A stretch of DNA of 64,000 bases from Halothiobacillus diazotrophicus (GTDB lineage Bacteria; Pseudomonadota; Gammaproteobacteria; Halothiobacillales; Halothiobacillaceae): the NCBI RefSeq assembly GCF_001663815.1, contig NZ_CP016027.1:682001-746000 (forward strand), read 5' to 3'. This document shows, piece by piece, positions 43,230 through 43,508 of the stretch (position 1 is the stretch's first letter; each line of letters starts with the position of its first letter). A program made the translations under genes and the position numbers. Under the pieces are notes generated by a model that saw only the letters and a program-made list of their open reading frames with translations, ran no database searches and was not told the origin of the DNA.

Positions 43230-43508
43230 TCAGACCCCTTCTGGGGTAATTCGCGCAGCAACCGCCTCGGTCAACGTGCCCAAGGTCCGAAACCATTCGG
43301 CATCAACGTCATCATCGGACAACGTCAGTCCGAAACGCGATTCCAACGCCGTCAGCAAAAGCACCACTCCCATCGAATCGAGTTCGGGTATCTCGCCGAG
43401 CAAGGACACATCTGCGTCTACGGCAATTGCTTCGTCGGACAGCCCCAGAGTATCAATAACCGTGTCCCGAACTTCGTGCAGAAGTTCAGCCTGGACCAGG
43501 ATCGTCAT
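43230..43508 (-). CDS. Acyl carrier protein-like phosphopantetheine-binding protein
   Basis: A 92-residue acidic four-helix protein with the prosthetic-group serine at position 45 in [10 protein letters not shown], followed by [19 protein letters not shown]. The ELDSM form rather than the GxDSL of fatty-acid ACP resembles carrier proteins associated with exosortase/EPS-type or other specialised systems. Its ATG overlaps the serS stop codon (ATGA), so it is translated with seryl-tRNA synthetase. No acyltransferase, ligase or exosortase gene is adjacent, so the group it carries is unknown. Confidence 0.82.

Follow-up and report, generated by a model that had tools for sequence, protein, structure and literature searches.

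A carrier protein encoded behind seryl-tRNA synthetase in Halothiobacillus diazotrophicus as the probable standalone carrier of a dispersed ligase–decarboxylase module

In Halothiobacillus diazotrophicus, the gene for seryl-tRNA synthetase (serS) overlaps with a gene for a small carrier protein, which raises the question of what this carrier holds and which enzyme loads it. The locus lies in a stretch of 64,000 nucleotides (NZ_CP016027.1, positions 682,001 to 746,000), referred to here as the window, and its features are collected in Table 1. Sequence comparisons suggest that the protein probably acts as a standalone carrier and forms a three-part module with a VinN-like ligase and a BtrK-like decarboxylase that are encoded elsewhere in the genome.

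Table 1. Features of the carrier locus, in positions of the window
Feature	Position	Strand	Basis
Carrier protein gene (acp), 92 aa	43230..43508	(-)	PF00550 match; family orthologues; AlphaFold2 model vs 2LKI
Ser45 codon, predicted phosphopantetheine attachment site (ELDSM)	43374..43376 (43376-43374)	(-)	Read in sequence; alignment
ATGA overlap, serS stop / carrier start	43505..43508	(-)	Sequence; -4 start in family loci
serS, seryl-tRNA synthetase, complete, 432 aa, upstream neighbour	43505..44803	(-)	TIGR00414 + Seryl_tRNA_N
Presumed greA, upstream gene of the greA-serS-acp run	44839..45327	(-)	Presumed name; context only
Presumed ferredoxin-like gene, convergent with acp	42899..43144	(+)	Presumed name; context only
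Presumed coaD-like gene near acp	42175..42654	(+)	Presumed name; context only

Residues 12–83 of the carrier match the Pfam PP-binding family (PF00550) at 33.1 bits, over the curated cut-off of 20.8, and the attachment serine is present, which places the protein in this family. Residues D44, S45 and M46 are invariant in an alignment of 35 sequences. An earlier reading of the locus, made from the sequence only, had described a 92-residue carrier with Ser45 in an ELDSM motif and an ATGA overlap with serS; the sequence, the PF00550 match and the 35-row alignment bear out this description. The AlphaFold2 model (mean pLDDT 84.8) has a helical carrier fold, and its best match in the PDB is 2LKI (Foldseek 2.1e-4, TM 0.74/0.81, 42% identity), which is also the best match by sequence (52.5 bits). 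This entry is the NE2163 carrier of Nitrosomonas europaea and is titled holo-ACP, a title that belongs to the homologue only. Chains of the VinK–VinL and VinM–VinL complexes stand at ranks 4 and 6 of the structural search. A search of PHROGs gave no match, while scans of positions 42600-45700 found no sigma-70-like promoter site and three terminator-like sites, against 2.3 expected.

The PP-binding match is generic and carrier structures are all alike, features that would also suit an ordinary AcpP-like protein for fatty acid or polyketide synthesis, with the co-occurrence of the ligase being incidental. Nevertheless, the carrier falls far under the cut-off of every NCBIfam ACP profile (best match 33.2 versus 80), the genome encodes a separate canonical-looking ACP at C1:1267566-1267769, and the neighbours of the carrier gene in relatives are the ligase and the decarboxylase. 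An ordinary AcpP role was rejected on the NCBIfam scores and the separate ACP in the genome, and it is considered very unlikely. The carrier is real and specialised, and it is predicted to be the phosphopantetheine carrier of the ligase–decarboxylase module.

The arrangement behind serS was followed in 57 genomes, comprising that of H. diazotrophicus and 56 relatives, of which 27 belong to the same family (Halothiobacillaceae) and 30 lie outside it. Of the 27 family genomes, 26 encode an orthologue of the carrier, the exception (G026) being 64% complete, and identity to the carrier of the window ranges from 43 to 69% in the 25 other family genomes. In all 26 genomes that have it, the gene is located directly downstream of serS on the same strand. 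Because of these two counts, the arrangement cannot be ascribed to chance. Of the 26 family loci, 21 offer a start codon at -4; in the other five, all from genus g3, the nearest start lies 4–5 bases past the serS stop. A second, broken carrier-like copy in two frames (54% and 66% identity) was observed at G007:C5:267511-267731, about 3 kb from the intact carrier of that genome, with four further genes between them.

Such constancy invites the idea that the carrier receives serine from SerRS itself, or from seryl-AMP that escapes from the enzyme, and that the overlap keeps both proteins in step. SerRS-like amino acid:carrier-protein ligases without the tRNA-binding arm do exist, and the carrier of one such ligase (4H2U_D) takes rank 28 among the structural matches. 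The SerRS of the window, however, matches TIGR00414 at 531.9 bits over profile positions 1–418 of 418 and possesses the Seryl_tRNA_N domain; judged from these matches, it is a full canonical tRNA synthetase and not a SerRS-like carrier ligase, in agreement with the sequence-only reading.

A scan of named genomes yielded 51 carrier loci, in which neighbours were counted by tblastn at E <= 1e-8 instead of by a home-made gene-calling script, which chose the wrong strand in some GC-rich loci (e.g. L053, L056, L091 and L103). A serS gene is found beside the carrier in 23 of the 51 loci, which belong to Halothiobacillaceae genomes and to one further lineage (L103, from genome G172 of family f147); the adjacency is thus confined, in the loci found, to these two groups. 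The other 28 loci have no serS match. Within the fetched DNA of these 28, a TIGR03099-type decarboxylase is present in 22 and a TIGR03098-type ligase in 20, while five contain only the exosortase-associated hydrolases hydr1 and/or hydr2. Hydrolase matches occur in 20 of the 28 loci, and 16 have both hydr1 and hydr2 or more. The commonest layout (11/28) is a ligase–decarboxylase pair divergent from a carrier-hydr2-hydr1 run, and L108 is the sole locus without ligase, decarboxylase, hydr1 and hydr2.

The search was also carried out in reverse, with 38 of the 39 decarboxylase-positive genomes of the class outside Halothiobacillaceae (G034 was left out). A carrier of this family was found in 23 of the 38 fetched decarboxylase neighbourhoods and was not found in the other 15; in two of these genomes, G041 and G043, it lies on another contig. 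In a locus of yet another family (L136, G279:C18), the carrier and decarboxylase genes converge about 6 kb from aroC, with no ligase match in the stretch.

These neighbourhoods bear directly on the supposed tie to SerRS. Adjacency in only 23 of 51 loci, the canonical nature of the synthetase and the presence of a TIGR03098-like ligase in 26 of the 27 family genomes all speak against serine loading, which we reject as highly improbable because only one family and one further lineage show the adjacency among the loci found. The serine cargo and functional link to SerRS suggested in the sequence-only reading are therefore not upheld, with 28 of 51 loci lacking a serS match. That reading had also named the outcome that would count against it, namely homologues standing consistently beside fatty-acid or exosortase genes with no serS link, and this is largely what emerged, as 27 of the 28 loci have the ligase/decarboxylase or the exosortase-associated hydrolases. 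The position behind serS is a family trait and gives no sign of a serine function.

The chromosome of H. diazotrophicus encodes both enzymes of the proposed module. A TIGR03098 match of 463.7 bits (next best 159.2) is followed directly by a TIGR03099 match of 471.5 bits at C1:2805816-2808789. Its distance from the carrier gene is about 2.08 Mb along the contig and, should the chromosome be circular, 0.83 Mb in the opposite direction. The proposal that the specialised carrier has partners in trans is borne out, with the likely partners, ligase and decarboxylase, encoded far away on the chromosome. Both scores are under the curated cut-offs (592.35 for the ligase and 478.45 for the decarboxylase); both cut-offs are passed by family genomes G010, G011, G015 and G019 and by Tepidiphilus L107, and that of the decarboxylase alone by G017.

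Each of the two enzymes is found in 26 of the 27 family genomes, some genes being split or cut by contig ends; G001 is counted as decarboxylase-positive with its gene split over two contigs. The exception is G013, in which the carrier lies behind serS (L063) and panB and panC are present, with no match for ligase, decarboxylase or panD, a pattern that we attribute to an assembly gap or decay. The pair stands beside a gene that we take to be aroC in 10 of the 12 fetched family ligase loci, and in the other two (L058 and L062) the further neighbours are identical and aroC was not called. Carrier and enzyme genes share a contig, as serS-carrier and decarboxylase-ligase-aroC, in two of the 23 serS-linked loci (L085, from G019, and L103, from G172). 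From this it follows, by inference, that the three genes of the module were probably once contiguous.

In the PDB, the decarboxylase is closest to BtrK, of which two entries lead the matches (210.7 and 210.5 bits), followed at a distance by the next distinct protein, 6KNH (151.4 bits); this and other diaminopimelate decarboxylase entries rank behind BtrK. The enzyme is thereby related, through BtrK, to decarboxylases of carrier-bound amino acids. As described in PMC7857480, BtrK converts BtrI-S-glutamate to BtrI-S-GABA.

The ligase gives matches to amino acid adenylation domains. LgrA entries with two such domains top the longer searches and outscore VinN; among freestanding enzymes, 3WVN is matched best (positions 21-526, 192.7 bits). 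When the query is a 142-residue core fragment taken from the ligase of G019, a close homologue of the one here, 3WV4 and 3WVN rank first. These two entries represent VinN, for which PMC11253843 gives D230, F231, S299, K330 and R331 as key residues and connects them, together with a loop one residue shorter than in enzymes for alpha-amino acids, to the binding of a beta-amino acid. The G019 ligase aligns to VinN without a gap around this loop and keeps the arginine. Counted along the alignment, the five positions read D, Y, S, F and R in the G019 ligase, and likewise in that of H. diazotrophicus, in which K330 is not kept (Phe) and F231 is conservatively changed (Tyr).

Across the 34 ligases compared (33 distinct), the VinN Asp and Arg are kept in all. 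Tyr and Ser accompany them in 23, and Ala and Thr occur together in their place in 11 (Tyr to Ala, TNS to ANT). The latter, L086, L089, L092, L093, L095, L096, L107, L110, L111, L113 and L115, are all betaproteobacterial records. This change in the predicted pocket may mark a different substrate, so the cargo may differ among lineages.

On this basis, the following sequence of steps is proposed. The VinN-like adenylating enzyme would activate an acidic amino acid, for which the side-chain carboxyl of L-aspartate is the likeliest candidate, and the activated residue would be loaded onto the phosphopantetheine arm at Ser45 of the carrier. The BtrK/VinO-like PLP-dependent decarboxylase would then remove the alpha-carboxyl while the residue is carrier-bound, giving a beta-alanyl-carrier, or a GABA-carrier if the substrate is glutamate. 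The location behind serS would be inherited and would provide steady co-expression with housekeeping genes, SerRS not acting as the loader. Homology, linkage in relatives, co-occurrence and pocket residues are the observations behind this scheme, and cargo, decarboxylation, co-expression and product fate are deduced from them. Several findings count against it: the scores of both enzymes under the cut-offs in H. diazotrophicus, the LgrA entries that outscore VinN, the Phe at K330 and the Ala/Thr variants, the carrier of G013 with neither enzyme matched, the 15 decarboxylase neighbourhoods without a carrier, and the family genomes having yielded no acyltransferase, thioesterase or acceptor. The identity of the cargo is the less secure part: aspartate is roughly an even call, and the use of glutamate by BtrK means that it is not certain.

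The closest parallel is the VinN-VinL-VinO system of vicenistatin, along with its FlvN-type counterpart of fluvirucin. According to PMC11284099, VinN loads 3-methylaspartate on VinL, decarboxylation by VinO follows while the residue is on the carrier, and the substrate of FlvN is aspartate. The module shares with these systems a standalone carrier, a standalone adenylation enzyme with the VinN Asp/Ser/Arg and ungapped loop alignment, and a PLP decarboxylase whose predicted substrate is the carrier-bound residue. It differs in being proteobacterial and dispersed over two housekeeping loci, in having Phe for K330, and in that no VinM, VinK or polyketide synthase was noticed by eye beside the ligase in the fetched loci. 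The BtrI–BtrK pair of the butirosin side chain resembles it in the decarboxylase, BtrK being the closest solved homologue and acting on a carrier-bound amino acid, and is unlike it in taking glutamate; the carrier of BtrK is presumably loaded by a different kind of ligase than the one here.

The second parallel is the exosortase A-associated set. The enzymes belong to the same families as ligase_PEP_1 (TIGR03098) and dCO2ase_PEP1 (TIGR03099), both under the curated cut-offs here, and the carrier is homologous to the one beside hydr2 and hydr1, yet exosortase, hydr1 and hydr2 were sought in the genome of H. diazotrophicus with no match. An exosortase system proper is consequently unsupported in this genome. 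Elsewhere in the family, weak PF09721 matches (34-39 bits) in G002, G010 and G022 cover part of the profile only. The sequence-only reading had offered a dispersed exosortase-like system as one option, a guess that came close since all three proteins, carrier, ligase and decarboxylase, have homology to exosortase-A-associated families; the exosortase label itself does not fit this genome.

A related possibility is that the module places an amino-acyl group on a surface polysaccharide or membrane component, a role that could be supposed for the exosortase-A-associated genes, and that the exosortase was lost in Halothiobacillaceae. Homologous carrier-hydr2-hydr1 and ligase-decarboxylase genes in exosortase-bearing genomes (e.g. 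G041 and G043), an acyltransferase-like gene seen by eye after the decarboxylase in G043, and the 16 non-serS loci with both hydrolases or more are in line with this. Against these stand the genome of H. diazotrophicus, with none of the three exosortase-related genes matched, the near-universal presence of the module in the family among housekeeping genes, and two Tepidiphilus loci (L107 and L111), where the genes lie among argB-, aspS- and glyA-like genes (named by eye) with no hydrolase match. Surface decoration is thus a possible but rather unlikely role.

The preferred reading, that of a carrier served by the distant ligase and decarboxylase, proposes concrete biochemistry for two families whose NCBI names derive from exosortase and whose curated status is that of hypothetical equivalogs, and it names the carrier that both enzymes need. 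As a separate observation, locus L064 (G040:C30) contains two TIGR03098-like ligases flanking a different carrier-like small protein, with an asparagine-synthase-like gene adjoining (by eye) and an exosortase match roughly 9 kb from the ligase pair; it is possibly a second design of the system.

If the cargo is aspartate, the overall conversion would be the same as that of PanD and of PanP/DVU0867, which, as described in PMC10102598, decarboxylate free aspartate for pantothenate by means of a pyruvoyl group and as PF00282 enzymes, respectively; the module is proposed to do so with the residue carrier-bound. This leads to a further and tentative suggestion, namely that in Halothiobacillaceae, and probably in other lineages, the carrier is the site where beta-alanine for pantothenate and coenzyme A is made, with PanD having become dispensable. 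Aspartate would be tethered by its side chain and decarboxylated by the BtrK-type enzyme, and beta-alanine would be released or handed on. As the carrier needs phosphopantetheine, such a route would be autocatalytic, coenzyme A being required for making coenzyme A. We regard this role as possible but rather unlikely, and put it forward as a testable proposal and not as a result. If the product does feed pantothenate, it would fill a gap in coenzyme A synthesis for a whole bacterial family, by an unexpected, self-dependent source of beta-alanine and a carrier-dependent path to a universal cofactor. No report of a carrier-dependent beta-alanine route was found in the open-licence literature searched, mostly by title, and a search of the same kind of literature by title found no essential-gene study of H. 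neapolitanus.

The distribution of panD is the basis of this suggestion. All 27 family genomes lack the gene (PF02261), which 20 of the 30 other genomes in the search possess, and panB and panC occur in 27 of 27 family genomes (sought with one chimeric query). PanP/GadB-like matches in the family are limited to G005 (strong) and G011 (16.8 bits), with none in the other 25, in a search with two query sequences that may miss distant homologues. The genome of H. diazotrophicus accordingly has panB and panC and neither a panD nor a PanP/GadB match, the pattern expected where PanD has a substitute. Among 369 genomes of the class, 16 of the 43 with the decarboxylase (E <= 1e-90) have panD, versus 224 of 326 others (Fisher p = 1.2e-4, the genomes being related). 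With one genome per family (158), in which the family numbers of unlisted genomes were inferred from listing order, the counts are 8 of 19 with the decarboxylase versus 94 of 139 without it (p = 0.04).

Within single families the picture is divided. In f18, f108, f129 and f142, the listed member bearing the decarboxylase is without panD, and panD occurs in other listed members that are without the decarboxylase. In f12, f53, f95, f107, f122, f125 and f126, decarboxylase bearers with panD are also seen among the matches listed, a listing that left out most members with neither gene. Outside the family, 23 decarboxylase genomes are panD-less, and six of these show a PanP/GadB-like match, which is weak in two cases. 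In addition, six of nine controls without panD and decarboxylase (G030, G032, G042, G050, G068 and G072) combine panB/panC with the absence of a PanP/GadB match, so the lack of a beta-alanine source is no peculiarity of bearers of the module. The panD-positive controls have panB and panC in four of four cases and a PanP-like match in three of four. In the 51 named carrier loci, panB, panC and panD were sought with no match at E <= 1e-8.

A gene that we take to be coaD-like, and hence of the coenzyme A pathway, lies 576 bases beyond the carrier in the window. It is near the carrier at 14 of the 23 serS-linked named loci, and about 4 kb off in L071; its closeness is possibly a coincidence. The presumed ferredoxin-like gene is present at 14 of these loci as well. 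On the other side, the gene presumed to be greA is located upstream of serS in 22 of the 23 loci, the remaining one being cut by a contig end.

Other carrier-related loci were noted in the genome of H. diazotrophicus. At C1:798000-815000 (L050), a ketosynthase-like ORF with an open frame of 2596 aa and a PP-binding domain is followed by genes that look, by eye, like capsule-export genes. At C1:2729000-2738000 (L043), two carrier proteins, a ketosynthase-like gene and others form a cluster that, we presume, resembles an aryl polyene cluster.
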